From Lysobacter sp. K5869 (lineage in GTDB: Bacteria; Pseudomonadota; Gammaproteobacteria; Xanthomonadales; Xanthomonadaceae): a stretch of DNA of 64,000 nt. Location: contig NZ_CP072597.1 of NCBI RefSeq assembly GCF_018847975.1, positions 2,519,001-2,583,000 of the forward strand. Direction: 5' to 3'. Numbering within the stretch: the stretch's first letter is position 1; each line of letters begins with the position of its first letter. The notes under the pieces are model-generated. The model was not told the origin of the DNA, made no database searches, and was given only the letters and a program-made list of their open reading frames with translations. The position numbers were made by a program, and so were the translations under genes. Positions 229 to 22,257 of this stretch are shown here, in pieces.

Positions 229-305
229 TGCGATCCCGCTCACGGCTAGCGCCCCGCGCAAACGCCCGAACCGGCTTGTTGGCACTTCAAGCGACGCCGT
301 AGCGT
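229..305 (+). promoter_or_regulatory. CRP/Clp-like site and promoter element before S8 protease 1
   Basis: TGCGA-N6-TCACG lies at 229-244 and the hexamer TAGCGT at 300-305, 71 nt from start to start. The same pair, at the same distance within 2 nt, precedes six other protease genes in the window. The half-sites resemble the CRP consensus TGTGA-N6-TCACA; Clp is the CRP homologue of xanthomonads and a known regulator of lytic enzymes in Lysobacter. That TAGCGT acts as the -10 region is inferred. Confidence 0.55.
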
Positions 306-440
306 GATAGGGCGGACCGCGACGGTACTGAGTCCGTACACAAGCAGCGTGGACGCTGGCGTGTGCAACATGGACGTGGCCGCCCAACCACCACGCGTTG
401 ATTCGCCGCCCTGCGGCACTTCGATTTTGGGGGTTCCACC

Positions 441-2219
441 ATGTCTCACCGCTCCAACGGCGCGCTGCGCCAGCACGCGCTCGCCGCCGCCACCGTGGCC
501 GCCCTGTCGTGCGTAGCGATGTCGGCCTCCGCGGCCGACCGCGTCAATCTGGCCGCGCTGGCCAATGCCGATTCGCACGACCAGTTCATCGTCAAGTACC
601 GCGACGGCAGCGCCGCGCGCAGCAACGCCGCGAACCTGAGCCGCTCGCTCGACGCCGCCGCTGCCGGCTTCTCCGGCAAGGGCCGCGCGCTGGGCCTCAA
701 GCACCTGCGCCGCATCGGCACCGGCGCCGACGTGGTCCAGGCGGGCCGCAAGCTCGACCGCGCCGAAGCGCAGTCGCTGATGCAGCAGATCAAGCTCGAC
801 CCGAACGTGGAATACGTGGAAGAGAACGCGCCGATGACCGCGTTCTTCACCCCGGACGACACCCGCTTCGGCGAACAGTGGGGCTACGGCGCCTCGGGCA
901 TCAACACCGCGCAGGCCTGGGACGTGAGCACCGGCACCGGCGTGGTCGTGGCGGTGATCGACACCGGCATCACCAACCACAGCGACCTCAACGCCAACAT
1001 CCTGCCCGGCTACGACTTCATCAGCGATTCGACCGCCGCGCGCGACAGCAACGGCCGCGATTCGGATCCGGCCGACCAGGGCGACTGGTTCACCGCCGGC
1101 GAGTGCGGCGTGACCTACAGCAGCAACTCCAGCTGGCACGGCACCCACGTCGCCGGCACCATCGCCGCGGTGACCAACAACGCCAAGGGCGTGGCCGGCA
1201 CCGCGTACAACGCCAAGGTCGTGCCGGTGCGCGTGCTCGGCAAGTGCGGCGGCACCCTGGCCGACATCGCCGACGCGATCACCTGGGCCTCGGGCGGCAC
1301 CGTGTCGGGCATTCCGGCCAATCCGAACCCGGCCGAAGTGATCAACATGTCGCTCGGCGGCAGCGGCGCCTGCGGCTCGACCTATCAGGCGGCGATCGAC
1401 GGCGCGGTCGGCCGCGGCACCACCGTGGTGGTGGCCGCCGGCAACGGCAACATCAACGCCTCCAACGCGCGTCCGGCCAACTGCAACAACGTGATCGCGG
1501 TGGGCGCGGTCGACAGCGCCGGCAAGCGTTCGGTGTGGAGCACCTCGCAGAAGTCGAACTACGGCGCCGTGGTCGACGTGGCCGCGCCGGGCTCGAACAT
1601 CCTGTCCACGCTCAACGCCGGCACCACCACGCCGGGCGCCGAGAGCTACGCCTCCTACGGCGGCACCTCGATGGCGACGCCGCACGTGGCCGGCGTGGTC
1701 GCGCTGCTGCAGGCCAAGGCGACGACGCCGAAGACCCCGGCCGAGATCGAGACCATCCTCAAGACCACCGCGCGCGCGTTCCCGGCGACCCCGGACCAGC
1801 CGATCGGCACCGGCATCGTCGACGCCAAGGCGGCGCTGGATTCGCTCGGCGGCGGCAACCCGAACCCGGGCACGCAGACCTACAGCAACGGCACCGACGT
1901 CAACATCCCGGACAACAACGCCACCGGCGTGACCAGCTCCATCGTCGTCTCCGGCCGCACCGGCAACGCGCCGAGCAACGCGCAGGTTTCGGTCAACATC
2001 GTCCACACCTACCAGGGCGACCTGATCGTCGACCTGATCGCGCCGGACGGTTCGGTCTACAACCTGCACAACCGCAGCGGCGGCGGCACCGACAACATCG
2101 TCCAGACCTACACGGTGAACCTGTCGAGCGAAGCCTTGAACGGCACCTGGAAGCTGCGCGCTTCCGACCGCGCGTCGATCGACACCGGCTACATCAACAG
2201 CTGGAGCGTCACGTTCTGA
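441..2219 (+). CDS. Secreted S8 subtilisin-like protease with P-domain (S8 copy 1)
   Basis: 592 residues. A signal peptide covers about 1-31 (ending ASA). It is followed by an inhibitor-I9-like propeptide at about 48-128 (QFIVKYRDG...PNVEYVEE), then the S8 catalytic domain with Asp174 (VIDTG), His233 (HGTHVAG), oxyanion Asn335 (AAGNGN) and Ser410 (GGTSMATPH). A proprotein-convertase P-domain fills about 478-592. The protein should be exported and mature by removal of the propeptide. Start ATG 441 has a GGGGG tract 7 nt upstream. It is monocistronic, with its own CRP-like site and terminator. It has no PKD domain, unlike copy 2. Substrate preference cannot be read from the sequence. Confidence 0.95.
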   Translation: MSHRSNGALRQHALAAATVAALSCVAMSASAADRVNLAALANADSHDQFIVKYRDGSAARSNAANLSRSLDAAAAGFSGKGRALGLKHLRRIGTGADVVQAGRKLDRAEAQSLMQQIKLDPNVEYVEENAPMTAFFTPDDTRFGEQWGYGASGINTAQAWDVSTGTGVVVAVIDTGITNHSDLNANILPGYDFISDSTAARDSNGRDSDPADQGDWFTAGECGVTYSSNSSWHGTHVAGTIAAVTNNAKGVAGTAYNAKVVPVRVLGKCGGTLADIADAITWASGGTVSGIPANPNPAEVINMSLGGSGACGSTYQAAIDGAVGRGTTVVVAAGNGNINASNARPANCNNVIAVGAVDSAGKRSVWSTSQKSNYGAVVDVAAPGSNILSTLNAGTTTPGAESYASYGGTSMATPHVAGVVALLQAKATTPKTPAEIETILKTTARAFPATPDQPIGTGIVDAKAALDSLGGGNPNPGTQTYSNGTDVNIPDNNATGVTSSIVVSGRTGNAPSNAQVSVNIVHTYQGDLIVDLIAPDGSVYNLHNRSGGGTDNIVQTYTVNLSSEALNGTWKLRASDRASIDTGYINSWSVTF

Positions 2220-2265
2220 TCGCGGATGGACGCGGCCAGGACGGCCGCGTTCGCCGATGCACTCG

Positions 2266-2295
2266 AAAAGCCCCGGCTTCGGCCGGGGCTTTTTT
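2266..2295 (+). terminator. Intrinsic terminator after S8 protease 1
   Basis: An 8-bp GC stem (GCCCCGGC/GCCGGGGC) with a TTCG loop is followed by six T. The same hairpin recurs after most genes of the island. Confidence 0.9.
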
Positions 2296-2329
2296 CGTTT
2301 CGGCGGTGCCTAGTGATCGCGAGTTCTTT

Positions 2330-2414
2330 TGTAGGAGCGGCGTGAGCCGCGACCGCGAAACCGCGCTTACGTCGCAACCCGCTTATCGCGGTCGCAGCTT
2401 GCGCAGCTCCTACA
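2330..2414. repeat. REP-type inverted repeat
   Basis: It begins TGTAGGAGC and ends GCTCCTACA, with long complementary arms around a short centre. This is the first of three adjacent copies in the gap between S8 proteases 1 and 2. Confidence 0.8.
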
Positions 2415-2454
2415 GTCGGACTTCCAACTACGTCGCGGCTTGCGGGCTCGCCCG

Positions 2455-2538
2455 GTAGGAGCGGCGTGAGCCGCGACCGCGAAACTTCGCTTGCGTCGTA
2501 CGCCGATTTGCGCGGTCGCAGCTTACGCAGCTCCTACC
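2455..2538. repeat. REP-type inverted repeat
   Basis: Second copy of the GGTAGGAGC...GCTCCTACC hairpin, 40 nt after the first. The arms are slightly diverged from the first copy. Confidence 0.8.
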
Positions 2539-2576
2539 GTCGGACTTCCAGTTGCGTCGTAGTTTCGGACTCGCCC

Positions 2577-2650
2577 TGTAGGAGCGGCGCAAGCCGCGAC
2601 CGCGAAACCTCGCGCGCGCCGCAAACCGCCTATCGCCGCCGCGGCTGCAA
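2577..2650. repeat. Degenerate REP copy
   Basis: The left arm TGTAGGAGC with the following segment is well kept; the right arm has decayed. Third copy in a row. Confidence 0.6.
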
Positions 2651-2750
2651 ACATGTGCACCGAATGTGCGAAATTCACATGCGAAAATTCTCCGCGAAAC
2701 CACGCGCGAACCACCGCCAACCCGCATTCTTTCATTACGAATGCGCGGAC

Positions 2751-2826
2751 TGTGATTGACATCGAACCCTGGCGGGCGACTTATGCCGCAAATCCCCTGT
2801 CATCGCGCCACCGCAGCCACTAGCGT
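2751..2826 (+). promoter_or_regulatory. CRP/Clp-like site and promoter element before S8 protease 2
   Basis: TGTGA-N6-TCGAA at 2751-2766 has a perfect left half and a weaker right half. TAGCGT is at 2821-2826, exactly 70 nt from site start to hexamer start. The spacer of the site also contains TTGACA (2756-2761), which could be an alternative -35 with no good -10 partner. Confidence 0.5.
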
Positions 2827-2949
2827 GTGCCCCCGGACGCGACCCCACGCGCGTTCGCGACGACGTTCCATGCACGGCGGCCCCGCCACGCCCGCGCGCT
2901 GGAGCGTTCCCTTTCGCCGCACAGCGGCGCTTACTTCGAGGGGTACACC

Positions 2950-5004
2950 ATGTCGTTCCGTTCCGTCCGCGGCCATCGCCCGCATCTGCTCGCCGCCGCC
3001 ACCGCGCTCGCGCTCGCCGCGCTCGCCGCTCCCGCGTTCGCCGGCGAGGCCCACCTGGGCGCGCTCAAGGCCGGCGGCAGCTACAGCCGCTTCATCGTCA
3101 AGTACAAGAACGACAGCGCCGCCGCCAGCGGCGGCGCCGCGCTGAGCCGTTCGCTCGACACCGCCGCCGCGCGCGTCGCGCTGCCCGCCGCGGCCAAGGG
3201 CGCGCGCGTGGGCCTGCATCAGGTACGCCGCATGCTGGTGCCCGGCGCGAGCGTGATCGCCTCCGACCGCGCGCTCGGCCGCGACGAAGCCGAGGCGATG
3301 ATGCGCCAGATCGCCGCCGATCCGAATGTGCAATACGTGCAGATCGACGGCATCCGTCGCGCCCTGGCGACGCCGAACGATCCCACCTTCAGCAAGCAGT
3401 GGCACTACGCCGACAGCGCCGTCGGCATCCGCGCGCCCACCGCCTGGAACACCGCCACCGGCACCGGCGTGGTGGTCGCGGTGGTCGACAGCGGCATCCT
3501 GTCGCACACCGACCTCAACGCCAACATCCTGCCCGGCTACGACATGATTTCCTCGACGACGGGCTTCTCCGACGCCGAGTGCCGCGACGCCGGCGCTTCG
3601 CCGGGCTGCGGCAAGTCCGACGACGGCGACGGCCGCGACGCGAACCCGAACGATTCGTCGAACATCGTCCACGGCACCCACGTCGCCGGCACCATCGCGG
3701 CGGTGACCAACAACGGCGCCGGCGGCGCGGGCGTGGCCTACAACGCCAAGGTCGTGCCGGTGCGCGCGCTCGGCAACCAAGGCTTCGGTTCGGACTCGGA
3801 CATCGCCGACGCCGTGGTCTGGGCCTCCGGCGGCACCATCGCCGGCGTGCCGGCCAACGCCAATCCGGCCGAGGTCATCAACCTCTCGCTCGGCGGCCCG
3901 GCGCCGTGCACCGACACGCCGGCGTGGCAGTCGGCGATCGACACTGCGATCGCCAACGGCTCGACCGTCGTGGTCGCCGCGGGCAACAGCAACATCGACG
4001 TCGCCGGCTTCACGCCCGCCAGCTGCAACGGCGTGATCCGCGTCGCCGCCAGCAACAAGAGCGGCGCGCGCGCCTCGTACTCGAACTACGGCGCCACCAT
4101 CCACGTCACCGCGCCGGGCGGCGAGAACGGCATCTTCGGGCCGAGCTCGACCGAGGGCGTGATCTCGACCGTCGCCAGCAACGGCTACGGCCCGATGGCC
4201 GGCACCTCGATGGCCTCGCCGCACGTGGCCGGCATCGTCGCGCTGATCCAGTCCGCCGCGCCGAGCCCGCGCACGCCGGCGCAGGTGCTGCAGATCCTGC
4301 AGAGCACCGCGCGGCCGATCGCCGCGAGCCAGTGCTCGGGCGGCTGCGGTTCGGGTCTGGTCGACGCCGCCGCCGCGGTGGCCGCGGCCGGCGGCACGCC
4401 GGGCAATCAGGCGCCGGTAGCGAACTTCGCCTCGTCGGTGAGCGGGTTGACGGTGAGCTTCACCGACAGCTCGACCGACAGCGACGGCTCGATCGCCTCG
4501 CGCAGCTGGGATTTCGGCGACGGCACCACCTCGACCGCGACCAGCCCGAGCAAGACCTACACCGCGGCCGGCACCTACACGGTCAAGCTGACGGTCACCG
4601 ACAACGGCGGCTTGAGCAACACCAAGACCTCGACCGTCACCGTCGGCAGCAGCGGCGCGCAGACCTACACCAACGCCACCGACGTCAACATCCCGGACAA
4701 CAACGCCACCGGCGTGACCAGCTCCATCGTCGTCTCGGGCCGCAGCGGCAACGCGCCGAGCACGACCCAGGTCGCGGTCGATATCGTCCACACCTACCAG
4801 GGCGATTTGATCGTCGATCTGATCGCGCCGGACGGCAGCGTCTACAACCTGCACAACCGCACCGGCAGCAGCACCGACAACATCAAGAAGACCTACACGG
4901 TGAACTTGTCGAGCGAAGCGCTCAACGGTACCTGGAAGCTGCGCGCGGCGGATCGCGCGTCGGTGGACACCGGCTACATCAACAGCTGGAGCATCACGTT
5001 CTGA
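2950..5004 (+). CDS. Secreted S8 subtilisin-like protease with PKD and P-domain (S8 copy 2)
   Basis: 684 residues from ATG 2950, chosen because a GAGGGG tract precedes it and it begins a clean signal peptide (residues 1-31, ending AFA). The frame stays open upstream, but that extension is not signal-like. Propeptide about 47-132 (RFIVKYKND). Catalytic Asp180 (VVDSG), His241 (HGTHVAG), Asn346 and Ser420 (GTSMASPH). A PKD domain at about 486-572 and a P-domain at about 575-684 follow. Both tail domains are nearly identical in DNA to the tail of the lysyl endopeptidase at 10974, although the catalytic domains are unrelated. Expected to be an extracellular endopeptidase. Confidence 0.95.
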   Translation: MSFRSVRGHRPHLLAAATALALAALAAPAFAGEAHLGALKAGGSYSRFIVKYKNDSAAASGGAALSRSLDTAAARVALPAAAKGARVGLHQVRRMLVPGASVIASDRALGRDEAEAMMRQIAADPNVQYVQIDGIRRALATPNDPTFSKQWHYADSAVGIRAPTAWNTATGTGVVVAVVDSGILSHTDLNANILPGYDMISSTTGFSDAECRDAGASPGCGKSDDGDGRDANPNDSSNIVHGTHVAGTIAAVTNNGAGGAGVAYNAKVVPVRALGNQGFGSDSDIADAVVWASGGTIAGVPANANPAEVINLSLGGPAPCTDTPAWQSAIDTAIANGSTVVVAAGNSNIDVAGFTPASCNGVIRVAASNKSGARASYSNYGATIHVTAPGGENGIFGPSSTEGVISTVASNGYGPMAGTSMASPHVAGIVALIQSAAPSPRTPAQVLQILQSTARPIAASQCSGGCGSGLVDAAAAVAAAGGTPGNQAPVANFASSVSGLTVSFTDSSTDSDGSIASRSWDFGDGTTSTATSPSKTYTAAGTYTVKLTVTDNGGLSNTKTSTVTVGSSGAQTYTNATDVNIPDNNATGVTSSIVVSGRSGNAPSTTQVAVDIVHTYQGDLIVDLIAPDGSVYNLHNRTGSSTDNIKKTYTVNLSSEALNGTWKLRAADRASVDTGYINSWSITF

Positions 5005-5049
5005 TCGCGCTGGCGCGGCCCACGCGGCCGCGCCGTCCGATGCGCGACG

Positions 5050-5076
5050 AGCCCCGGCTTCGGCCGGGGCTCTTTT
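5050..5076 (+). terminator. Intrinsic terminator after S8 protease 2
   Basis: GCCCCGGC-TTCG-GCCGGGGC stem-loop followed by TCTTTT. Confidence 0.85.
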
Positions 5077-5278
5077 AGCGGCGCCGCATGTGCGTGTCGC
5101 GGCCGTGGGCTTGCCCGGCGCAAGCGGCGCGAGCCGCGACTGCGGCACTAGGTTTTCGACCGCAGCGCGGTGTCGCGGTCGTGGCTCGTTCCGTTTCTGC
5201 AGCGGACTTGGCTCGGGCGTCCTGCGGGAACGCGAGGAACGCCTCATCGCTTTCAGACTCGTCCGATTGTTTTCCCGA

Positions 5279-5353
5279 TGTGGCGTGGCTCACATTTCAA
5301 TCGAAGTTGCCGTCTTGCATCGGTCCGCGAGGCCCGCATCCGGCACCGATGAT
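5279..5353 (+). promoter_or_regulatory. CRP/Clp-like site before S8 protease 3
   Basis: TGTGG-N6-TCACA at 5279-5294 differs from the CRP consensus in one of ten half-site bases. The element 69 nt downstream is GATGAT (5348-5353) rather than TAGCGT, so the promoter part is less certain than for the sister genes. Distance to the start codon (201 nt) matches S8 copies 1 and 2. Confidence 0.5.
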
Positions 5354-5479
5354 CGAACGCTACGCGCAGCCGGCGTTCGCCCGTCGAACCCAGCCCGCCT
5401 CCATCCGCCGCGCGCGCACCGAACCGGCGCGGCGTTCCGCCAAAACGGGCCACGCCCGAACCCCAGGGGACGAACGACG

Positions 5480-6901
<1,422 letters not shown>

Positions 6902-7369
6902 GCCCGCCGGTCCGGCGTGCGGTCGCCGTATCGCGAACGGTGTGGGCGCCGGCTCCGCGGCGCCAGCGCGTCTTGATCCGCGTTCGCCGGCGATGTACGC
7001 AACGAACCCCGGCTTCGGCCGGGGTTCGTTTTTTTGCGGTTGCGCGTAAACGCTCTGGCTGCGGCGCGGCGCGGCCAGAGCGAGCGCGGCATTGCACGGT
7101 GCGGCGCAAACGCAAACCCCTTGATCGAGCCGACGCGTGAGGCGAGCGGACAGCGCCGCGCCCCGGCGGCGCCTACGACCGCCGCGATCCGCCCGGATCG
7201 CGCGCCGCACCTGAATCCGCTTGCCGCAAGCCGCCCGCCGCAAGCCGCGCGATCCGTATGGGAGACTGGCCGCGGCGCTTTCAGCCGCGATTGGGCCGTC
7301 GCGCCGTTACATCGACCCCACCGCGCCCCGTCGCGCGTTGCAGATCATTCCCCGCCAGGAGTCGCCCGC
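6902..7369. other. Gap before the orphan propeptide gene
   Basis: Terminator at 7001-7035 and otherwise no recognisable feature. No CRP-like site of the kind seen before the protease genes was found. Confidence 0.4.
7001..7035 (+). terminator. Intrinsic terminator after S8 protease 3
   Basis: A 13-bp stem (AACGAACCCCGGC) with a TTCG loop, then a run of T. Confidence 0.92.
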
Positions 7370-7918
7370 ATGTCGCCTTCGTCCCGCCGCCTAGTTCTTC
7401 CGGTCGCCGCCGTTTCCTTGTGTCTGGCGGTCGGCGCCTGCATGGCCGCCGGCAACGCCGCCTCCGACGGCGCCGCGCCGCCCGCCTCGAAGGCCGCCTC
7501 CCGCGCGGTCGCCGATACTTCGCCCGCACCGGAGCCCCAGCCCATGCCGTCCGACCGCGCCTCCGCCGATCCCAGCAAGCCCAAGGCCCATGTCGGCGAA
7601 CCCGTCGGCAACGGTCCGTTCGGCCAGTTCATCGTCAAGTACCGCGACGACTCGCAGCCGCTCAAGCAGCAAGGCGCGGTGCAGCCGCGCCTGGACCGCA
7701 CCGCGGCGCAGTTCGGCAAGAGCGGGGTCAAGCTGACCTGGAAGCACCGCATGGGCATCAACGCCGACGTGTTCAGCGTCAGCCCCGCGCTCAGCCGCGG
7801 CGAAGCGGTGACCTTGATGAACGCGTTCGCCGCCGATCCCGATGTGCAGTTCATCGAACCCGACAACCACATCTCGCTCGGGCCGATCATCCGTCAGCCG
7901 GAAGTGGTGGATAAGTAA
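7370..7918 (+). CDS. Orphan S8 propeptide (inhibitor I9-like) lipoprotein
   Basis: 182 residues from ATG 7370, with AGGAG 8 nt upstream. The N-terminus is a lipoprotein signal with VGAC at 21-24 (Cys24), then a Pro/Ala/Ser-rich linker to about 80. Residues 86-166 (GQFIVKYRDD ... DPDVQFIEPD) match the propeptides of the three upstream S8 proteases, including the QFIVKYR start and the PNV(E/Q)YV-like end. No catalytic domain follows; the protein stops 16 residues after the propeptide. Known S8 propeptides fold and inhibit their own protease, so this could be a membrane-held inhibitor or folding helper acting in trans on secreted subtilases. That role is inferred. It could also be a truncated protease remnant, but the intact lipobox, RBS and terminator argue for a real gene. 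Confidence 0.85.
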   Translation: MSPSSRRLVLPVAAVSLCLAVGACMAAGNAASDGAAPPASKAASRAVADTSPAPEPQPMPSDRASADPSKPKAHVGEPVGNGPFGQFIVKYRDDSQPLKQQGAVQPRLDRTAAQFGKSGVKLTWKHRMGINADVFSVSPALSRGEAVTLMNAFAADPDVQFIEPDNHISLGPIIRQPEVVDK

Positions 7919-8073
7919 GCGCGGGCTTCGCGATCCGCCGCGGGCGAAAGAGCGGATCGGAAGACGAACCGATTCGGACGCCCTCGCCGACGCGGACGGC
8001 GACATCGGCGGACGCGCGACTCGCGAACCGGCGAATCCGAAAACGCGGAACCCGACATCGACACGCACACCCG

Positions 8074-8100
8074 AAACCCCGGCCCGCGCCGGGGTTTTTT
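8074..8100 (+). terminator. Intrinsic terminator after the orphan propeptide gene
   Basis: AAACCCCGGC stem with a CCGC loop and GCCGGGGTTT, followed by T. This loop differs from the TTCG used by its neighbours. Confidence 0.85.
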
Positions 8101-8159
8101 CTTGCGTCCGTATCGCTCGCTGAGACACAAAAAACCACCGATAAACGGCAATTTTACGA

Positions 8160-8237
8160 TGCATGACAGGCATCACGAAGACCGGCGCCGCAAGCGCTTG
8201 CGAAGCATTGCCGCTGCCCCGCCGATGCCGTTAGCGT
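8160..8237 (+). promoter_or_regulatory. CRP/Clp-like site and promoter element before the M72-like metalloprotease
   Basis: TGCATGA-N6-TCACGAA spans 8160-8179. TAGCGT is at 8232-8237, 70 nt from the core CATGA. TTGCCG (8208-8213) lies 18 nt before the hexamer and could be the -35. All 14 fixed bases of the site are identical to the site before the M28 gene at 19052. Confidence 0.6.
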
Positions 8238-8385
8238 CGTAGTGCGGACGGACCGACGATCCGATCCGCGCACGACCGGACGCGCACGCGCTGCAGGCCA
8301 CGCGAGCGTGCGACGCACCGGCATCCATGCCGCTACACCTTCCTTTCGGCCGCGTCGCGGCCTTCGACCTCGGGGGTTGAACAAT

Positions 8386-10329
8386 ATGCGTACCACCTCA
8401 CGCCTGCGCGCGCGCAACGCCGCGCGTGCCGCCGTTCTGTTGTCCGGATTCGCCATCTTGCCGGCGTTCGCCGCGCAACCGCTGTTCGTCGGCGACGCGC
8501 CCGCCGCGCGCGCCAACCTCGCCGGCGCGCAGATCGCCGGCGCGCAAGCCGCCGCCGCGAGCGAAGCGCAGCGCCTGGCCTCGGCCAAAGCCACCGCCTC
8601 GCTGCAGCTCAAGCGCGCCGACGCCAAGCTCGTGTCCAAGGCCACGCGCGAGATCGAACTGCGCCTGGGCTCGCACCTCGTCAACGCCGTGCTCGACAAC
8701 GCGCGTGACACCAACGACGGCGCCACCGTGTGGCTCGGCCATCTCAAGGAAAACGCCAAGAAGGCGGGCCACGACGCGCGCGAAGTGCGCCGCGACGAGC
8801 GCAACTCGGTCGCGCTGGTGCGCCGCGGCGACGGCGTCACCGGCAACGTGCGCGTGGACGGCAAGCTCTACCGCATCCGTCCGCTCGCCGACGGCACCCA
8901 CGCCGTGGTCGAAGTCGACGAGACCCGCATGCCGCCGGATCACCCGGCCGGCTATCGCGATTCGGACCTGCCGCAGATCGACATGCGCGCCGCGACCCGC
9001 GCCGCGCTCGCCGCGGTCGGCCCGGCCGCGGTCGATCCGGGCGCGACCGCGACCATCCGCGTCCAGGTCGTCGCCACCAATCAGGCGATCACCGCGTACG
9101 GCGGCGACATGCGCGCGCTGGTCGATCTCGCCATCGCCGAAAGCAATCAGGGCTACGCCAACTCCAACGTCGGCATCCAGCTGGAACTGGCCAACTACCG
9201 CACCGTCGAATACACCTCGGCCGGCGACGGCCACTTCACCGACGAAGAGCGCTTCGCCGATCCCAACGACGGCTACATGGACGACATCCACGCCAGCCGC
9301 GACGCCAACGCCGCCGACGTGAGCGTGCTGATCATCGACGACGCCGGCAACTGCGGCCTGGCCCATTCGATCGGTTCGACCGCCGACACCGCGTTCGCGA
9401 CCGTGCATTACGACTGCGCCACCGGCTACTACAGCTTCGCCCACGAAATCGGCCACCTGCTGTCGGCGCGCCACGATCCCGCCGCCGATCCGACCAACAC
9501 GCCCTACGCCTACGGCCACGGCTACCGCTACGAGCCGGCCACCGGCAGCAAGTGGCGCACGATCATGGCCTACAACTGCAGCGCCGGTTGCCCGCGCCTG
9601 AACTACTGGTCGAACCCGGACGTGACCTACAACGGCGTGGCCATGGGCACGGCCGACCGCAACCACAACCAGCGCGTGCTGGTGCAGACCAAGGCCGCGG
9701 TGGCCGCGTTCCGCGCCGCGCCGGGCGGCAACGTCGCGCCGACGGCGAACTTCACCTCCAGCGCGAGCGGGCTGACGGTGAGCTTCACCGACAGCTCGAC
9801 CGACAGCGACGGCTCGATCGCCTCGCGCAGCTGGGATTTCGGCGACGGCACCACCTCGACCGCCGTCAATCCGAGCAAGACCTACAGCGCGGCCGGCACC
9901 TACACGGTCAAGCTGACGGTCACCGACAACGGCGGCCTGAGCAACACCAAGACCTCGACCGTCACCGTCAACGCCAGCGGCGTGCAGACCTACACCAACG
10001 CCGCCGACGTCAACATCCCGGACAACAACGCCACCGGCGTCAGCAGCTCGATCAGCGTCAGCGGCCGCAGCGGCAACGCGCCGAGCAACGCCCAGATCGC
10101 GGTCAAGATCGTCCACACCTACCAGGGCGACCTGATCGTCGATCTGATCGCGCCGGACGGCAGCGTCTACAACCTGCACAACCGCACCGGCGGCAGCGCC
10201 GACAACATCAACCAGACCTACACCAAGAACCTGTCGAGCGAAGCGCTCAACGGTACCTGGAAGCTGCGCGTCGCCGACCGCGCTGCGGCCGATACCGGCT
10301 ACATCGACAGCTGGAGCGTCACGTTCTGA
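8386..10329 (+). CDS. Secreted M72-like (peptidyl-Asp type) metalloendopeptidase with PKD and P-domain
   Basis: 647 residues from ATG 8386, following CGGGGG and opening a signal peptide (about 1-30). A prodomain runs to about 220. The metzincin zinc motif HEIGHLLSARHD has ligands His353, His357 and His363, with catalytic Glu354. The Met-turn is RTIMAYNC with Met394. The segment from HEIGH through YWSNPDVTYNG resembles peptidyl-Asp metalloendopeptidases of family M72; a general reprolysin-like metzincin is the alternative. A PKD domain (about 450-535) and a P-domain (about 538-647) follow, of the same subtype as in S8 copy 2 and the lysyl endopeptidase at 10974. Monocistronic. Confidence 0.9.
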   Translation: MRTTSRLRARNAARAAVLLSGFAILPAFAAQPLFVGDAPAARANLAGAQIAGAQAAAASEAQRLASAKATASLQLKRADAKLVSKATREIELRLGSHLVNAVLDNARDTNDGATVWLGHLKENAKKAGHDAREVRRDERNSVALVRRGDGVTGNVRVDGKLYRIRPLADGTHAVVEVDETRMPPDHPAGYRDSDLPQIDMRAATRAALAAVGPAAVDPGATATIRVQVVATNQAITAYGGDMRALVDLAIAESNQGYANSNVGIQLELANYRTVEYTSAGDGHFTDEERFADPNDGYMDDIHASRDANAADVSVLIIDDAGNCGLAHSIGSTADTAFATVHYDCATGYYSFAHEIGHLLSARHDPAADPTNTPYAYGHGYRYEPATGSKWRTIMAYNCSAGCPRLNYWSNPDVTYNGVAMGTADRNHNQRVLVQTKAAVAAFRAAPGGNVAPTANFTSSASGLTVSFTDSSTDSDGSIASRSWDFGDGTTSTAVNPSKTYSAAGTYTVKLTVTDNGGLSNTKTSTVTVNASGVQTYTNAADVNIPDNNATGVSSSISVSGRSGNAPSNAQIAVKIVHTYQGDLIVDLIAPDGSVYNLHNRTGGSADNINQTYTKNLSSEALNGTWKLRVADRAAADTGYIDSWSVTF

Positions 10330-10402
10330 AGCGGCGCGTTCCGGCGCTTCGGGTCGTGAAGCGCCGGAGCTCGAAGCGCCGCTGGGCGAAGCATCGCGTT
10401 CG

Positions 10403-10430
10403 CATGCATCCGGTTTCGATGCATGGCGTT
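10403..10430 (+). terminator. Possible terminator after the metalloprotease
   Basis: An 8-bp perfect inverted repeat (CATGCATC, 7-nt spacer, GATGCATG) at 10403-10425 is followed by GGCGTTTT. It is less GC-rich than the standard island terminator. A second 11-bp hairpin without a T run lies just upstream at 10340-10368. Confidence 0.45.
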
Positions 10431-10763
10431 TTCGGAGCCGCGGCCGAAGTCCCGCACGCGTGCCGCGCACGCGGCGCGCGGGGCAGGGCGGACGCCGGCG
10501 CTCCGCGGCCGCAAGGCCGGCACCACCGTCCGGCGGCCGACGCCGCCGGGCTTGTGCGCTGAGGGGAGCGCAACGTCACCGCGTCGCCCGGGTTCGCGCC
10601 CGGACGGCGCAACGCGTCGATGCAAGGCGGCCCGGACGCGGACCGCCGCGGGCGCGGTCGTGCCCGGTTCCGCCTCGGACCGGCGCGCCGCACCGCCGCG
10701 ACGCGGGTGACGGGCTGTGTTCCACCGCGCTGGAATCCGTCTCATCGGCTCTGTCGCTCCTGA

Positions 10764-15712
<4,949 letters not shown>

Positions 15713-15737
15713 TGCCGACGGTTTGACCCCGCACCAC

Positions 15738-15765
15738 GCCGCGGCCTTCGGGCCGCGGCTTTTTT
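15738..15765 (+). terminator. Intrinsic terminator after lysyl endopeptidase 2
   Basis: 9-bp stem GCCGCGGCC with a TTCG loop and six T. Confidence 0.92.
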
Positions 15766-15791
15766 CAGGTCTGCGATATTCCGTATCCCCC

Positions 15792-16047
15792 TGTAGGAGC
15801 GGCGTAAGCCGCGACCAACCGCAGCGATGTACGCAAGCGCCTCTTCCCGAAGACCAAAAAATCGTTGACAGCGGCGCCCAGGGGTTCCGGGCTTCGGAAA
15901 ATTTCGTGGCATTACGTCAGCGACGTACGTAAGCCTCGCTTCCCGAAAACCAGAAAATCGGCGACGGGGCGGTCAGGGGTTCCGGGCTTCGGAGAATTAC
16001 GTGGCATGACGTCGCTTCGGTTGGTCGCGGCTTACGCCGCTCCTACC
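15792..16047. repeat. Composite REP element with duplicated core
   Basis: Outer arms begin TGTAGGAGC and end in the GCTCCTACC type. Inside, a core of about 95 bp occurs twice in tandem (15823-15918 and 15919 to about 16013). Each copy carries GGGGTTCCGGGCTTCGG and CGTGGCAT. The single-core version is at 29268-29427. Confidence 0.8.
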
Positions 16048-16101
16048 GGGAGCCAACGCAACACCGTCGCGAACTGTGCGCCACTTCGCACAGCTGCGAA
16101 C

Positions 16102-16177
16102 TGCTGTCCGCTTCACGAAAGCACACGAATTAAGCGCCGCGCGGCGCTTGTCAGCGCCGGCCGCGCATCCACAGCAT
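16102..16177 (+). promoter_or_regulatory. CRP/Clp-like site and promoter element before the M14 carboxypeptidase
   Basis: TGCTG-N6-TCACG at 16102-16117 continues as TCACGAA, like two sister sites. CAGCAT at 16172-16177 is 70 nt downstream in the position of TAGCGT, and TTGTCA (16148-16153) lies 18 nt before it. A separate perfect palindrome TGTGCG-N6-CGCACA is at 16075-16092. Confidence 0.5.
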
Positions 16178-16238
16178 GACTCCCGGCACGCGCTCCGCGC
16201 GTGACTGCCCACCGCAACGGTTCTTGGAGAGTCTCCCA

Positions 16239-18521
16239 ATGCGCTTCCAAACTGCCGCGTTGCCGCTGTTGCTGGCGCTGTCCGCCAGCGCCGCGGCCGC
16301 CGACGATCAGCCCGTGTTCGTCACCGCGAAATACGAAAACCCCAAGCAGCTGCAACGCATCGCCTCGCGCTTCCAGCATTTGATCGTCGACCGTCAGGCC
16401 AAGACGGTGAAGGTCGAGGCCATGCCCGAGGATCTGGCCGCGCTGCGCGCCGCCGGCTTCCAGTACGAAGTCGATCAAGCCTCCACCGCGCAGATGCAGC
16501 GCCTGCAAAGCGCGCTGAAGTCCTCGCTCGACGGCGCCAAGAGCATTCCCGGCTACACCTGCTTCCGCACGGTCGAAGAGACCTATCAGACGATGGACCA
16601 GTTGGCCGCGAGCAAGCCGCAGCTGGCCAGCGTGCGCGTGATCGGTCCGAGCTGGCAGAAGACCCAGAACTCGGCCACCGGCTACGACATGCGGGTGTTC
16701 AAGCTGACCAACTCGGCCACCGACGCCGCGCTGCCGAACAAGCCGACCCTGGTGTTGTTCGGTTCGATCCACGCGCGCGAGTACGCGCCGGCCGAGCTGG
16801 TGACGCGCTTCGCCGAGGGGCTGGTCAACGGCTACGGCACCGACGCCGAAGCGACCTGGCTGCTCGACAACTTCGCCTTCCAACTGGTGCTCAACGCCAA
16901 TCCCGACGGGCGCAAGAAGGCCGAGGCCGGTTCGTCCTGGCGCAAGAACGTCAACAACAGCAACGGCGGCAGCTGCAGCGCCAGCAGCTACGGCACCGAC
17001 CTCAACCGCAACTTCCCGTACCACTGGAACAGCGTGTCCGGCGGTTCCAGCGGCAATCAGTGCGCCGAGACCTATCGCGGGCCGACTCCGTCGTCGGACC
17101 CGGAAACCCAGAACCTGATGCGTCTGGTCGCCGGCACCCGCGGCAGCAACGGCGTCTATACCGGCGGCGTGTTCCCCGACCGCCGTCCCGACGACGTCAA
17201 CACGCCCACGCCGGCCGATTACCAAGGCGTGTTCATCGACATCCACAGCAACGCCGCACAGGTGCTGTGGTCGTGGGGCGACACCAGCAACCCGGCGCCG
17301 AACCGCGACGCGCTGCAGACGTTGGGCCGGCGCATGGCCTACTTCAGCGGCTACCGCCCGCAGCAGTCCGACGAGCTCTACGCCACCGACGGCACCACCG
17401 ACGACACCATGTACGGTCTGCTCGGCGTGCCGAGCTACACCATCGAACTCGGCGGCAGCTTCTTCGAGAGCTGCAGCAGCTTCACCGGCACCACCTTGCC
17501 GAACAATCTGCGCACGCTGCGCTATCTGGCGCGCACGCTGTGGGCGCCGCTGCAGTTGCCGAGCGGGCCGGACACGACCTCGGTGAGCCTGTCGTCTTCG
17601 TCGGTGCCGGCCGGTACGCCGGTCACCGTCACCGCCAACGTCAACGACGGCCAGTTCAACCAGAGCAACGGCAGCGAGGCGGTGCAGAACATCGCCTCGG
17701 CGCGCGCTTACATCGACACGCCGCCGTGGGCGAGCGGGGCGGTGGCGATCGCGCTGAGCGCGAGCGACGGCGGCTTCAACAGCAGCAACGAGAACGTCAC
17801 CGGTTCGATCTCCACCAGCGGTCTGGCCGCGGGCGCGCACACCGTCTACGTGCAGGGCACCGACGCTTCGGGCAAGCCGGGCACGCCGAACGCGGCGCGC
17901 TTCACCGTGACCGGCGGCGGGCCGGGCAACACCCCGCCGGTGGCGAACTTCACCGCGACCACCAGCGGCTTGACCGCGAGCTTCACCGACACCTCCAGCG
18001 ACAGCGACGGCACCATCGCTTCGCGCAGCTGGAACTTCGGCGACGGCACCGCGTCCACCGCGACCAACCCTAGCAAGACCTACAGCGCGGCCGGCACCTA
18101 CAACGTCGCATTGACCGTGACCGACAACAGCGGCGACACCAACACCAAGACCACGGCGGTGACGGTGAGCAGCGGCGGCGCGCAGACCTACAGCAACGAC
18201 GCGGACGTGGCGATCACCGACAACGCCACCGTGGAAAGCCCGATCGTGGTGTCCGGCCGCAGCGGCAACGGTTCGGCCAGCACGCCGGTGCAGGTGACGA
18301 TCTACCACACCTACAAGAGCGATCTGAAAGTCGATCTGGTCGCGCCGGACGGCACCGTCTACAACATCCACAACCGCACCGGCGGCAGCGCCGACAACGT
18401 CATCGGCACCTTCAACAAGGATCTGTCGAGCGAGCCGCTCAACGGGACCTGGAAGCTGCGGGTGAACGACAACGCCAACGGCGATACCGGGCGGATCGAT
18501 ACGTGGAGCATCACGTTCTGA
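16239..18521 (+). CDS. Secreted M14 zinc carboxypeptidase with PKD and P-domain
   Basis: 760 residues from ATG 16239 with GGAGA 8 nt upstream. Signal peptide about 1-21. The carboxypeptidase-A fold has zinc ligands His178 and Glu181 (HARE) and His336 (DIHS). Substrate Arg257 lies in DLNRN and catalytic Glu403 in TIELGG. About 447-560 is an Ig-like beta domain (VSLSSSSVPAGTPVTVTA), then PKD about 565-645 and P-domain about 648-760. The tail subtype matches lysyl endopeptidase 2. It should remove C-terminal residues from peptides released by the neighbouring endopeptidases. Which side chains it prefers is not clear from the sequence. Confidence 0.94.
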   Translation: MRFQTAALPLLLALSASAAAADDQPVFVTAKYENPKQLQRIASRFQHLIVDRQAKTVKVEAMPEDLAALRAAGFQYEVDQASTAQMQRLQSALKSSLDGAKSIPGYTCFRTVEETYQTMDQLAASKPQLASVRVIGPSWQKTQNSATGYDMRVFKLTNSATDAALPNKPTLVLFGSIHAREYAPAELVTRFAEGLVNGYGTDAEATWLLDNFAFQLVLNANPDGRKKAEAGSSWRKNVNNSNGGSCSASSYGTDLNRNFPYHWNSVSGGSSGNQCAETYRGPTPSSDPETQNLMRLVAGTRGSNGVYTGGVFPDRRPDDVNTPTPADYQGVFIDIHSNAAQVLWSWGDTSNPAPNRDALQTLGRRMAYFSGYRPQQSDELYATDGTTDDTMYGLLGVPSYTIELGGSFFESCSSFTGTTLPNNLRTLRYLARTLWAPLQLPSGPDTTSVSLSSSSVPAGTPVTVTANVNDGQFNQSNGSEAVQNIASARAYIDTPPWASGAVAIALSASDGGFNSSNENVTGSISTSGLAAGAHTVYVQGTDASGKPGTPNAARFTVTGGGPGNTPPVANFTATTSGLTASFTDTSSDSDGTIASRSWNFGDGTASTATNPSKTYSAAGTYNVALTVTDNSGDTNTKTTAVTVSSGGAQTYSNDADVAITDNATVESPIVVSGRSGNGSASTPVQVTIYHTYKSDLKVDLVAPDGTVYNIHNRTGGSADNVIGTFNKDLSSEPLNGTWKLRVNDNANGDTGRIDTWSITF

Positions 18522-18550
18522 TCGATGCCGCGACGATGATTCGATAGACG

Positions 18551-18580
18551 AGCCCCGGCTTCGGCCGGGGCTTCTTTTTT
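18551..18580 (+). terminator. Intrinsic terminator after the M14 gene
   Basis: AGCCCCGGC-TTCG-GCCGGGGCT followed by TCTTTTTT. Confidence 0.9.
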
Positions 18581-18813
18581 CGCGGCTCGCGCCCGCCGCT
18601 TCCGGCGCGAAGTCCGTGCGATGTCGGATCGCAGCGTGTCCAAACGCGGGCGCCTTCGCTCGCGCCGCCTCGGCTCGGGTACGAGGAACACATGAAGCGC
18701 ACGCTGTTTCCATTCGCGAAACCCTGAAAATATAGGGATTTCGCAGCCGGTTCGCGGCCGATCCGCGCTCCGTTCGCCAGCGCATCGCGCAGCGTAAGCG
18801 TTTACTGCGCGTT

Positions 18814-18891
18814 TGCATGATCCAAGTCACGAACGCGAATGTGCGTTCGCTTCGCTTGTCGCTTGTCCCTCGCGTCAGGCGCGCTTAGCGT
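18814..18891 (+). promoter_or_regulatory. CRP/Clp-like site and promoter element before M28 aminopeptidase 1
   Basis: TGCATGA-N6-TCACGAA at 18814-18833. TTGTCC (18863-18868) lies 17 nt before TAGCGT (18886-18891). The distance from the core CATGA to TAGCGT is 70 nt, the same as before the metalloprotease gene. Confidence 0.6.
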
Positions 18892-19051
18892 CGAATCCCG
18901 GGCGCATCGGATCGTTCTCCCCCGTACGGCTCGACCGCGCTTTCACGCGCAGCAAGTCCCGCGGCGCGCCACGCGCGCCGCTTCCGTCCACCGCGTCCGC
19001 GCGCCGATGCCGGAGCATCCGCCGCCGACGCCCGATCCAGGAGCGCTTTCC

Positions 19052-20722
19052 GTGAATCCGCAATCCGCTTCCTCGCACGCCCGGTCCCGTTCCCGCCGCA
19101 TCGCCGCTTCCGCGCTGACGCTGGCGCTCGCCGCCGCGTTCGCGCCGGCCTACGCGCAGCATCAGGCGCACACGCACGAACTCGCCGCCGGCGAGGATCC
19201 GTTCAAGCCGGTCTACATCGTCACTTCGCGTCAGACCTTCGACGCGGGCGTGCAGACCCTGGCCAAGAATTCCACCGGCCTGAGCAACGCCGTCGGCAAG
19301 CCGCTGGTGATCGCCGAACTCAAGACCCATCAGCTCACCGACCTGATCCGCCACGTCCACGAAAAAGAGAAGCGCTGCGGCGGCTATTTCGCCTTCGACA
19401 GCCGCCAGGAAGCCGAGGCCTTCGTCAAGGCCGACCGCAGCCGCGAAGCCATCGATACCAAGTTCGCGACCTACACCATCGACAACCAAACCACGGTCAA
19501 TCCGTGGCTGAGTCAGGTCAGCGAAGCGAACATCCGCGGCACCATCAGTCATCTGTCGACGCAGTATCCGAACCGCTACTACTCCTCCACCCACGGCCGC
19601 ACCTCGGCGACCTGGATCAAGGACACGTGGCTGGCGCTCGGCAACGGCCGTAGCGACGTCAGCGCCGAGTTGTTCACCGGGTGCAGCACCTGTTCGACCC
19701 AACCGTCGGCGATCCTCACCATCCAAGGCAGCGAGCTGCCGAACGAAGTGGTGGTGCTCGGCGCGCACTTGGACTCGATCTCCAGCAGCGGCAGCGGCGA
19801 TGCGATGAACGCGCCGGGCGCCGACGACGACGCCTCGGGCATCGCCACGCTGACCGAAGTGCTGCGGGTGGCCTTGGCCAGCGGCTACAAGCCCAAGCGC
19901 ACGATTAAGTTCATGGGTTACGCCGCCGAGGAAGTGGGCCTGCGCGGCTCCAAGGCCATCGCCACCGATTTCCAGAACCGCGGCGTCAACGTGGTCGGCG
20001 TGCTGCAGCTTGACATGACCAACTACCGCAGCGGCGGCGCCAATCCGGTGCGTCTGGTCACCGACTACTCGAACTCGTCGCTGCAGCAGTTCCTGCGCGA
20101 TCTGCACGCGACCTATCTGGGCGGCACGCTGGGCAGCTACACCTGCGGCTACGGTTGCTCGGACCACGCGTCGTGGACCTCGGCCGGTTTCCCGGCGGCG
20201 ATCTACTTCGAGAGCGGCACCTCCAGCGGCGGCTACTCGCCGTACATCCACTCGCCGTCGGACACGCTGGCGAACATGGGCAACTCGGCGAGCAACAGCG
20301 TGCCGTTCGCCAAGCTCGGTTTGGCCTTCCTCGGCGAACTCGGCAAGACCGCCGGCAGCGGCCCCGGGCCGGGCCCGGGCACTCAGACCTACAGCAACGA
20401 CACCGACGTGGCGATCAGCGACAACGCCACGGTGGACAGCCCGATCACGGTGTCGGGCCGCACCGGCAACGCGCCGAGCAACGCGCAGGTGTCGGTGAGC
20501 ATCGTCCACACCTACCGCGGCGATCTGAAGGTCGATCTGGTCGCGCCGGACGGTTCGCTCTACAACATCAGCAACCGCGCCGGCGGCAGCGCCGACGACC
20601 TCAACGGCACCTTCACCTTCAACCTCTCCAGCGAAGCGCTCAACGGCACCTGGAAGCTGCGGGTCAACGACAACGGCCCGGGCGACGTCGGCCGCATCGA
20701 CAAGTGGAGCATCACCTTCTGA
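19052..20722 (+). CDS. Secreted M28 aminopeptidase with P-domain (M28 copy 1)
   Basis: 556 residues from GTG 19052, chosen because AGGAG lies 8 nt upstream and the signal peptide (about 1-35, AYA end) follows. An ATG 45 nt earlier (19007) lacks such a site. A propeptide runs to about 140. The co-catalytic zinc motifs of the Vibrio/Aeromonas leucyl aminopeptidase type are complete: His239 (GAHLDS), Asp258 (GADDDASG), Glu293/Glu294 (AAEEVG), Asp321 (LQLDM), His400 (YIHS). A Gly/Pro linker (about 436-444) leads to a P-domain at about 446-556; there is no PKD domain. It should trim N-terminal residues from extracellular peptides. Confidence 0.94.
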   Translation: MNPQSASSHARSRSRRIAASALTLALAAAFAPAYAQHQAHTHELAAGEDPFKPVYIVTSRQTFDAGVQTLAKNSTGLSNAVGKPLVIAELKTHQLTDLIRHVHEKEKRCGGYFAFDSRQEAEAFVKADRSREAIDTKFATYTIDNQTTVNPWLSQVSEANIRGTISHLSTQYPNRYYSSTHGRTSATWIKDTWLALGNGRSDVSAELFTGCSTCSTQPSAILTIQGSELPNEVVVLGAHLDSISSSGSGDAMNAPGADDDASGIATLTEVLRVALASGYKPKRTIKFMGYAAEEVGLRGSKAIATDFQNRGVNVVGVLQLDMTNYRSGGANPVRLVTDYSNSSLQQFLRDLHATYLGGTLGSYTCGYGCSDHASWTSAGFPAAIYFESGTSSGGYSPYIHSPSDTLANMGNSASNSVPFAKLGLAFLGELGKTAGSGPGPGPGTQTYSNDTDVAISDNATVDSPITVSGRTGNAPSNAQVSVSIVHTYRGDLKVDLVAPDGSLYNISNRAGGSADDLNGTFTFNLSSEALNGTWKLRVNDNGPGDVGRIDKWSITF

Positions 20723-20761
20723 TGCCCGGGTAACCCTTTCCGCCTTGGCGAAAACGTTCGC

Positions 20762-20790
20762 GCCCCGGCTTCGGCCGGGGCTTTTTTTTT
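20762..20790 (+). terminator. Intrinsic terminator after M28 aminopeptidase 1
   Basis: GCCCCGGC-TTCG-GCCGGGGC followed by nine T. Confidence 0.93.
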
Positions 20791-20827
20791 GCGCGGCGAT
20801 TTGGGACGCGTCTGATTCGCGGCGAAG

Positions 20828-20902
20828 TACGACCGGCATCACGCGGTCGCGCGCTGTGCGCGCTGCGCACCGCGGAGCCCGGCGAGCGGGGACGCGTAGC
20901 GT
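20828..20902 (+). promoter_or_regulatory. CRP/Clp-like site and promoter element before M28 aminopeptidase 2
   Basis: TACGA-N6-TCACG at 20828-20843 and TAGCGT at 20897-20902, 69 nt apart start to start. No good -35 is visible before the hexamer. Confidence 0.45.
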
Positions 20903-21006
20903 GGGTTCGAGGCCGGACGCCGCGTTGGCGCGGGCCGCAACCGTCGCGGCGCCGCGCCGCATACCGCTCGCCCCGCGCCTCGGGGCACCGTTTCGTGGAG
21001 GTCGCC

Positions 21007-22257
21007 GTGTTCCGTTTCGCCCAGGGTGTGTTGTTCTTCGTCTTCTTCGCCGCGTCCGCGTCCGCCGCCGGTCCGGCTCGCGGCGGCGAGCGCAAGCCGG
21101 TGTTCGTGGTCGCCTCGCGCGCGACCCAGCAAGCCGCGCTGGCCGACGCGGCCGGCCGCGTCAGCGCGCTCGCCGGCCTCGGCGCGGGCGGACGCGAACT
21201 GGCGATTTCCGAAGTGCCCGCCGAGCGGCTCGCCGATCTGGCTCGGCACGTGCACGAGAACGAAAAGCGCTGCGGCGGATTCTTCGCCTTCGACACCCGC
21301 GAACAGGCCGAAGCCTTCGTGCGTGACGATCTGAGCGCATTGGCGGTCGGCGCGCAGGCGGCGAGCTACACCGTGGACAATCAGGCGACGGTGACGCCGT
21401 GGTTGGGGCAAGTGCGCGAGGCCGACCTACGCGCGACCATCCGCAGCTTGTCGGGCAACTGGACCACGCGCCACGCCGCCAGCGCCGGCGGACGCGCCGC
21501 GTCGGACTGGATCCGCAGCGCGTGGGCGACGCTGGCCGGCAACCGCGCCGACATTTCCATCGAACAGACCGCCTGCGCCAACTGCGGGCAGCAGCCCTCG
21601 GTGGTGCTGACTTGGCGCGGCAACGAACTGGCGCAGGAGGTGGTGGTGCTCGGCGCGCACATGGATTCGATCGTCGCCGGCAGCGGCGGCGCCACCGCCG
21701 CCGCGCCCGGCGCGGACGACGACGCTTCCGGCGTGGCGACGCTGACCGAAGTGCTGCGGGTGGCCTTGGCCAGCGGATACAAGCCGCGGCGCACGGTCAA
21801 GTTCATCGCTTACGCGGCGGAGGAAATCGGCTTGCGAGGGTCCAACGCCATCGCCGCCGGGCACCGCGACCAGGGGGCGAACGTGGTCGGCGTGCTGCAG
21901 TTGGACATGACCAACTACCGCACGTTCGGCGGGCCGGATCTGCGCTTGATCAGCGACAACTCCAACGCCGGTTTGCAGCAGTTCGTGCGCGAGTTGTATT
22001 CGTCGTATCTGGGCGGCGGCGCGTTGGCCGAGTACACGTGCGGCTATGGCTGCTCCGATCACGCCTCGTGGACCGCGGCCGGCTATCCGGCGGCGATGGT
22101 GTTCGAAGGCGGTAGCGCCGACGGCAAGTACTCGCCGTACATCCATAGCCGCAACGACACGCTCGCCAACATGGGCAACTCCGCGGCCAACAGCGTGCCG
22201 TTCGCCAAGCTGGGTCTGGCGTTCCTGGGCGAGCTGGGCAAGACCTCGGCGCAGTGA
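21007..22257 (+). CDS. Secreted M28 aminopeptidase without P-domain (M28 copy 2)
   Basis: 416 residues from GTG 21007, with GGAGG (20997-21001) 5 nt upstream; a GTG at 20995 is in frame but overlaps that site. The signal peptide is MFRFAQGVLFFVFFAASASA. Zinc and catalytic residues: His218, Asp237, Glu272/Glu273, Asp300, His380. It aligns along its length with M28 copy 1 (HVHEKEKRCGG / HVHENEKRCGG, then GYGCSDHASWT in both) but stops right after FLGELGKT, where copy 1 continues into its P-domain. It is the last gene of the protease island. A GC hairpin without a T run follows at about 22270-22290. Confidence 0.94.
   Translation: MFRFAQGVLFFVFFAASASAAGPARGGERKPVFVVASRATQQAALADAAGRVSALAGLGAGGRELAISEVPAERLADLARHVHENEKRCGGFFAFDTREQAEAFVRDDLSALAVGAQAASYTVDNQATVTPWLGQVREADLRATIRSLSGNWTTRHAASAGGRAASDWIRSAWATLAGNRADISIEQTACANCGQQPSVVLTWRGNELAQEVVVLGAHMDSIVAGSGGATAAAPGADDDASGVATLTEVLRVALASGYKPRRTVKFIAYAAEEIGLRGSNAIAAGHRDQGANVVGVLQLDMTNYRTFGGPDLRLISDNSNAGLQQFVRELYSSYLGGGALAEYTCGYGCSDHASWTAAGYPAAMVFEGGSADGKYSPYIHSRNDTLANMGNSAANSVPFAKLGLAFLGELGKTSAQ

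Follow-up and report, generated by a model that had tools for sequence, protein, structure and literature searches.

Do the unrelated protease genes of a single bacterial island share one promoter and, if so, which regulator acts on it? The question is raised by a 64,000-nucleotide stretch of the Lysobacter sp. K5869 genome (contig NZ_CP072597.1, positions 2,519,001 to 2,583,000, here referred to as the window), which carries nine protease genes: three S8 subtilases (S8-1 to S8-3), a reprolysin-like (M12) metalloprotease, two trypsin-like enzymes, an M14 carboxypeptidase and two M28 peptidases (M28-1 and M28-2), as recognized by Pfam. The two trypsin-like proteins, whose Trypsin_2 matches fall below the Pfam cut-off, are presumably lysyl endopeptidases, a name taken from a preliminary description of the window and from general knowledge. 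That description noted a CRP/Clp-like site at a nearly constant distance from a TAGCGT-like hexamer upstream of seven of the genes. In our assessment, Lysobacter secreted-protease genes quite probably have in common a stereotyped, Clp-activated, sigma70-type promoter with the site centred at approximately -74.5.

The positions, letters and spacing of all seven pairs were given correctly (71, 70, 69, 70, 70, 70 and 69 nt from S8-1 to M28-2, counted from the start of the 16-bp site to the start of the hexamer). We scored each pair over seven core bases of the site (TGA and TCAC) and six of the hexamer at an offset of 69–71 nt, the maximum being 13, and used as background 1760 windows of 440 nt out of 400 kb of the same genome. 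The pairs of the M12-like and M28-1 genes score 13, those of S8-1 and M28-2 score 12 and that of S8-2 scores 11; only 13 of the background windows (0.74%) score 11 or more and none scores 12. Exactly five pairs in the window, on both strands, score at least 11, every one of them before these five genes, and these pairs are far above chance. Analysis of the whole genome (6 Mb, both strands) with the strict pattern GA-N6-TCAC-N53-57-TAGCGT gave five matches, four of them in the island, and none in a reversed control; for TCACG-N53-55-TAGCGT the respective numbers were seven, four and four. The hexamer TAGCGT occurs in the window seven times on the plus strand, five of them before the named genes, and once on the minus strand. 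By their own sequences, the upstream regions of S8-3 and M14 contain no pair above 8, a score attained by 99% of background windows, and the best pair of the second lysyl endopeptidase scores 9, which 52% of them reach. The genome has 22 matches to the subtilase family PF00082; of the 20 that were scored (all except L225 and L232), a score of 11 is reached by S8-1 and S8-2 alone, and the remainder have 10 or lower. Two of three GH18 genes were scored and had no pair of at least 10.

The spacing proved to be rigid. In 22 island sequences and the window stretch, from 20 genomes, offsets of 20–150 nt were scanned upstream of 97 gene-strand TAGC[GT]T hexamers: the full seven-base core was found at 70 (26 cases), 71 (6) and 69 (2). 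The other 128 offsets had no full core, and the 44 antisense hexamers of the same set had none at all. With one mismatch allowed, there were 53 cores at 69–71 and about 16 over the other 128 offsets (including five at 103, three at 48 and two at 39). Related sequences are counted many times in this test, so that the zero at other offsets is its telling part. In a set of 96 promoters chosen from 148 gene rows at a score of at least 11 (with the M14 and second lysyl endopeptidase promoters admitted leniently, at a best pair of at least 8), the trinucleotide TTG, which was not a selection criterion, begins exactly 24 nt upstream of the hexamer in 73. The information content of 36 non-redundant promoters is concentrated in three blocks, [AT]T..RTGAY....TCAC.AA, TTGYC and YAGCGT, with the lone columns -80, +7 and +15 (from the hexamer start) also above the 0.6-bit line used as the cut. 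What the sequences show directly is the three blocks, how constantly they are spaced, how well they are conserved and how rare they are. Given the -35-like TTG that emerged blindly and the three blocks, the hexamer is very probably a -10 element with an 18-bp spacer, which would put the site centre at about -74.5 (range -73.5 to -75.5, a value derived from the geometry that presumes the hexamer at -12 to -7). The arrangement of -10 and -35 is thus of the sigma70 type; within the window M28-2 has no clear -35, and S8-2 has CTG. At offset 70 the site extends to 55 nt upstream of the hexamer and stays clear of the -35, whose TTG starts 24 nt before the hexamer. A class II CRP layout, with a site that overlaps the -35 and is centred at about -41.5, does not fit full cores found solely at 69–71.

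Conservation among orthologues widened the picture. The M12-like gene was present in all 20 searched genomes of the genus, and in all of them [AT]TGA-N6-TCAC lies 69–71 nt before TAG[CG][GT]T while the remaining upstream DNA drifts. The M28-1 gene and its copies retain TCAC and TAG[CG][GC]T in 14 of 14 rows, M28-2 has the module in three of three (its own copy counted), and TGTGAT-N5-TCGA with TAGCGT is kept by the four closest orthologues of S8-2. For M14, the motifs TCACGAA, CTTG[TC]C and AGCATG are retained in all 14 rows from 13 genomes, with a weak left half-site. The proposal that seven genes share the pair thus stands for five by score and for M14 by conservation; it is unsupported for S8-3, whose three relatives (74–78% identical) have no conserved pair, and the membership of S8-3 in the promoter set is unproven. 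Both lysyl endopeptidases had been described as having no site. This applies to the first one and to the orphan gene, for which best scores are 8–9 and no common pair was found in 13 and 10 rows, respectively. The second lysyl endopeptidase carries CGTGACGCGATGCACG 70 nt before CACAGT, and CGTGACG-N5-CAC[GA] is retained 70 nt before CA[ACG]AGT in 13 of 13 rows (visible whole in the alignment in 10 of them), the right half being without the T of TCAC. With this variant module, the suggested split of the island into two regulatory groups fails; in five other Lysobacter genomes, lysyl endopeptidase genes have the full module. Judging by sequence, the correct set is six of the seven genes plus the one missed lysyl endopeptidase.

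The strict pattern is matched 58 times across the 20 Lysobacter genomes, and its reversed control twice. Forty-six of them precede secreted proteases: 13 M12, 16 S8, four S8 with a PA domain, seven M28, five lysyl endopeptidases and one protein with StcE-like domains. The remaining 12 include seven inside the gene for ribosomal protein L23, four inside biotin-carboxylase genes (assignments made by Pfam on one and two genes, respectively, and for the rest by near-identical matched letters) and one before a weakly ChaN-like gene whose match is below the Pfam cut-off. In five species with small genomes, the perfect palindrome TGTGA-N6-TCACA is found 70–71 nt before the TAGCGT of S8 genes, and the same species have the full module, with CATGA-N6-TCACG sites, before their lysyl endopeptidases. 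The subtilases with a PA domain (L090, L091, L116 and L264, in four Lysobacter genomes) also have the perfect palindrome, at offset 71 before TAGCGT; L222, their apparent relative in the K5869 genome by N-terminal likeness, has no pair scoring 10 or more.

The protein with StcE-type beta-sandwich domains (L094, genome G005) is a secreted-looking product whose gene carries the module.

The likely binder is Clp. The genome encodes a 229-aa Clp orthologue whose best match in PDB is 3IWZ (E 3.9e-115), which we take to be Clp of Xanthomonas campestris; the helix CSREMAGRVLKKL is identical in the two, and the protein is also above the cut-off of the NCBIfam CRP equivalog. GTGA half-sites fit the R-E-x-x-x-R helix of Clp by the rules known for CRP, and FNR-type sites do not. 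The module might be real and yet be bound by another CRP/FNR-family protein, as five proteins with a cyclic nucleotide monophosphate-binding domain are encoded in the genome and two M12 promoters have FNR-like left halves (CTTGA, reading TTGAT). One candidate, L089, is presumably FNR-like by its features and would then read TTGAT-N4-ATCAA. We consider another binder unlikely: the 36 non-redundant promoters display an RTGA..TCAC core, right half-sites mostly read TCAC (GTGA on the opposite strand), C occupying the diagnostic position in 33 of the 36, which rules out an FNR/Anr-type TTGAT-N4-ATCAA site, and some relatives have the perfect TGTGA-N6-TCACA expected of the Clp helix. Common control by a CRP/Clp-type regulator, as originally proposed, thus appears well supported by the rarity of the pair, the footprints in relatives, the -35 found blindly, the perfect sites and the Clp orthologue.

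In the layout that we propose, the palindrome [AT]T..RTGAY-N4-[ATG]TCAC.AA is followed by a TTGYC -35, a spacer of mostly 18 bp and a YAGCGT -10 at 70 ± 1 nt. A Clp dimer would most likely bind the palindrome, centred near -74.5, and recruit RNA polymerase to an otherwise weak promoter, touching the alpha C-terminal domain in a class I-like manner. The two subtilases, the M12-like, M14 and M28 enzymes and one lysyl endopeptidase would then be induced jointly, and the activity of Clp may be set by c-di-GMP or diffusible signal factor (DSF) signals. Since the promoters follow one plan and the plan is kept in relatives, one regulator probably switches most of the protease set on together. Clp control of lytic enzymes and proteases is already known for Lysobacter and its relatives: Clp is required for many Lysobacter extracellular products (PMC4657364, which cites by title a 2005 lytic-enzyme paper) and promotes protease synthesis in Stenotrophomonas (PMC11049440). 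The island resembles the case of Lysobacter enzymogenes in genus, regulator and target class, although the available part of that report (PMC4657364) gives no binding sites of protease genes and no spacing. As in E. coli class I CRP promoters of the lac type, there is a single palindrome upstream of the -35, sigma70 -10 and -35 elements and an activator-type layout. The E. coli sites, however, are centred at -61.5, -71.5/-72.5 or -82.5 (PMC6301791), whereas here the centre would lie near -74.5, a single rigid spacing is used across many genes and half-sites are often CATGA. The engXCA promoter of Xanthomonas shares with the island the regulator family, a secreted enzyme as the product and a Clp site located upstream, at -80 to -59; unlike the promoters described here, it has its main site elsewhere, at -53 to -32, and this second site overlaps that of HpaR1 (PMC6430473). 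The spacing is different, and no full cores at other offsets were found here in the 20–150 nt scan.

Several observations weigh against a Clp-activated promoter of this kind. Many left half-sites read CATGA instead of TGTGA, and one half-site is poor in S8-2, M14 and the second lysyl endopeptidase. The fifth strict match of the K5869 genome (L084) has no recognized protease gene behind it, and in 189 genomes from outside the genus the strict pattern shows no excess (19 matches against 17 in the reversed control). The upstream Clp site of engXCA is dispensable in vitro, activation coming from the one at -53 to -32 (PMC6430473). Activation factors of E. coli CRP are about 105 at -71.5, 83 at -72.5 and about 1.3 at -76.5, so that -74.5, which is not among the positions measured in the available part of that study, falls between working and dead ones (PMC6301791); the preliminary statement that the site is close to a class I CRP position holds only approximately. 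The explanation would be a geometry peculiar to this group or the help of another factor. This phase is not a classical activating one (PMC6301791), which would also suit repression or dual action of Clp. CRP-family proteins are able to repress. Still, repression or dual action appears quite improbable, because occlusion is unlikely at a site so far upstream of the -35, and Clp raises protease production in Stenotrophomonas (PMC11049440).

Could the likeness instead be mere inheritance, one promoter having been copied with each duplicated gene and having no present function? Pieces have moved between these genes, as C-terminal P-domains are found in seven of the nine proteins and PKD domains in many of them (Pfam), and over the 40 nt that follow the hexamer the likeness is slightly higher (mean 0.360) than in a shifted spacer null (0.287, standard deviation 0.066). 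Between the blocks, however, the seven window promoters have a likeness of 0.302 in register compared to the same 0.287 out of register, which leaves copying of whole upstream regions unsupported there, and the blocks survive across orthologues that are 70–91% alike in protein. The lack of extra likeness in register between the blocks, together with blocks kept in orthologues, points to selection, and inheritance alone is very improbable. A pairing by chance, picked out by eye, may account for S8-3, and M14 taken alone is at background. For the other five pairs it is ruled out by the background windows, the whole-genome patterns and the offset test, these being the sole pairs of at least 11 in the window and full cores occurring only at 69–71; as an explanation of the module, its probability is negligible. 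Activation by Clp from a fixed upstream site remains our preferred reading.

Outside Lysobacter, six of the 19 strict matches precede secreted-protease genes of the M4, S8 or M28 families. A GTDB-wide scan with a stricter pattern yielded 52 stretches, of which five from Lysobacter and three from Luteimonas belong to S8, M12 or M28 genes (for L139 the assignment was made from a site identical to that of L127, for L141 and L153 from their contigs and coordinates). Mechanical reading frames of 150 aa or more enclose 37 of the remaining 44; in GC-rich DNA this criterion is a weak one.

A further block occurs in other genera of the family: TGCTGCGNNYGCARCTTGA, an inverted repeat GCTGC-N4-GCAGC that abuts the -35, 38–39 nt before TAGCGT. 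It was found in 12 of 17 pattern matches from 198 genomes (two in the reversed control; loci L241-L247, L249-L251, L253 and L257) and in none of the nine Lysobacter genomes of that draw. All 12 loci precede protease genes, five of M4, five of S8 and two of M28, as judged by N-terminal likeness, with Pfam run on two (L120 and L127), and in 11 of the 12 a Clp-like core (6 or 7 of the 7 bases) is found at 68–72 nt. The repeat is possibly the site of a second regulator near -43.

No description of the spaced promoter, or of its spread over unrelated protease families, was found in the titles and abstract openings of the open-licence papers surveyed. A broader generalization is rather doubtful at this point, namely that at least six unrelated kinds of peptidases (S8, M12-like, M14, M28, lysyl endopeptidase and M4), in Lysobacter and several related genera, keep the Clp site and the -10 rigidly at one distance, in a phase not favoured by E. 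coli CRP. If true, it would imply a contact geometry between Clp and polymerase that is peculiar to this group, or a helper factor, whose site could be the GCTGC-N4-GCAGC repeat that some other genera have beside the -35. The promoter described for Lysobacter itself turns the general control of lytic enzymes by Clp into a testable rule at the level of single bases. The rule predicts the direct targets among the protease genes and tells them from their neighbours, and it offers a string with which to search related genera of soil and biocontrol bacteria for exoprotease promoters. The promoters also form a natural series for asking what holds the spacing so constant when its phase should be poor by the E. 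coli rule.

Table 1. Promoter elements and protease genes of the island, in window coordinates.
Feature	Position	Strand	Remarks
S8-1 Clp-like site TGCGATCCCGCTCACG	229..244	+	Closest S8-1 orthologues retain the site at offset 71
S8-1 -35 TTGTTG	276..281	+	18-bp spacer
S8-1 -10 hexamer TAGCGT	300..305	+	
S8-1 subtilase with P-domain	441..2219	+	Pfam PF00082, PF01483
S8-2 Clp-like site TGTGATTGACATCGAA	2751..2766	+	Weak right half; retained in 4 closest orthologues
S8-2 -35-like CTGTCA	2797..2802	+	
S8-2 -10 TAGCGT	2821..2826	+	
S8-2 subtilase with PKD and P-domain	2950..5004	+	Pfam
S8-3 claimed site TGTGGCGTGGCTCACA	5279..5294	+	With GATGAT at 5348-5353; unsupported
M12-like Clp-like site CATGACAGGCATCACG	8162..8177	+	20/20 genomes
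M12-like -35 TTGCCG	8208..8213	+	18-bp spacer
M12-like -10 TAGCGT	8232..8237	+	TAG[CG][GT]T in 20/20 genomes
M12/reprolysin-like metalloprotease with PKD and P-domain	8386..10329	+	Pfam
Second lysyl endopeptidase variant site CGTGACGCGATGCACG	13403..13418	+	13/13 rows
Second lysyl endopeptidase -35 TTGTTG	13449..13454	+	18-bp spacer
Second lysyl endopeptidase -10-like CACAGT	13473..13478	+	CA[ACG]AGT in relatives
Second lysyl endopeptidase, trypsin-like, with PKD and P-domain	13700..15712	+	Trypsin_2 below Pfam cut-off
M14 site TGCTGTCCGCTTCACG	16102..16117	+	Right half conserved, left weak; TCACGAA in 14/14 rows
M14 -35 TTGTCA	16148..16153	+	18-bp spacer; CTTG[TC]C in 14/14 rows
M14 -10 CAGCAT	16172..16177	+	[CA]AGCAT in relatives; AGCATG in 14/14 rows
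M14 zinc carboxypeptidase with PKD and P-domain	16239..18521	+	Pfam
M28-1 Clp-like site CATGATCCAAGTCACG	18816..18831	+	
M28-1 -35 TTGTCC	18863..18868	+	17-bp spacer
M28-1 -10 TAGCGT	18886..18891	+	
M28-1 peptidase with P-domain	19007..20722	+	Pfam
M28-2 Clp-like site TACGACCGGCATCACG	20828..20843	+	CATGA-N6-TCACG in 2/2 orthologues
M28-2 -10 TAGCGT	20897..20902	+	No clear -35
M28-2 peptidase	20995..22257	+	Pfam; start codon uncertain

The first lysyl endopeptidase gene, which has no module, is directly preceded by an imperfect tandem array of about seven copies of a 15-bp unit, CGAAATCCGCCGCAT, at positions 10762-10898. Outside the island, on the minus strand of the same genome (L038, at about C1:3383700), a gene for an M35 lysine-specific metalloendopeptidase has TCACG-N54-TAGCGT in its upstream region, with a poor left half-site.

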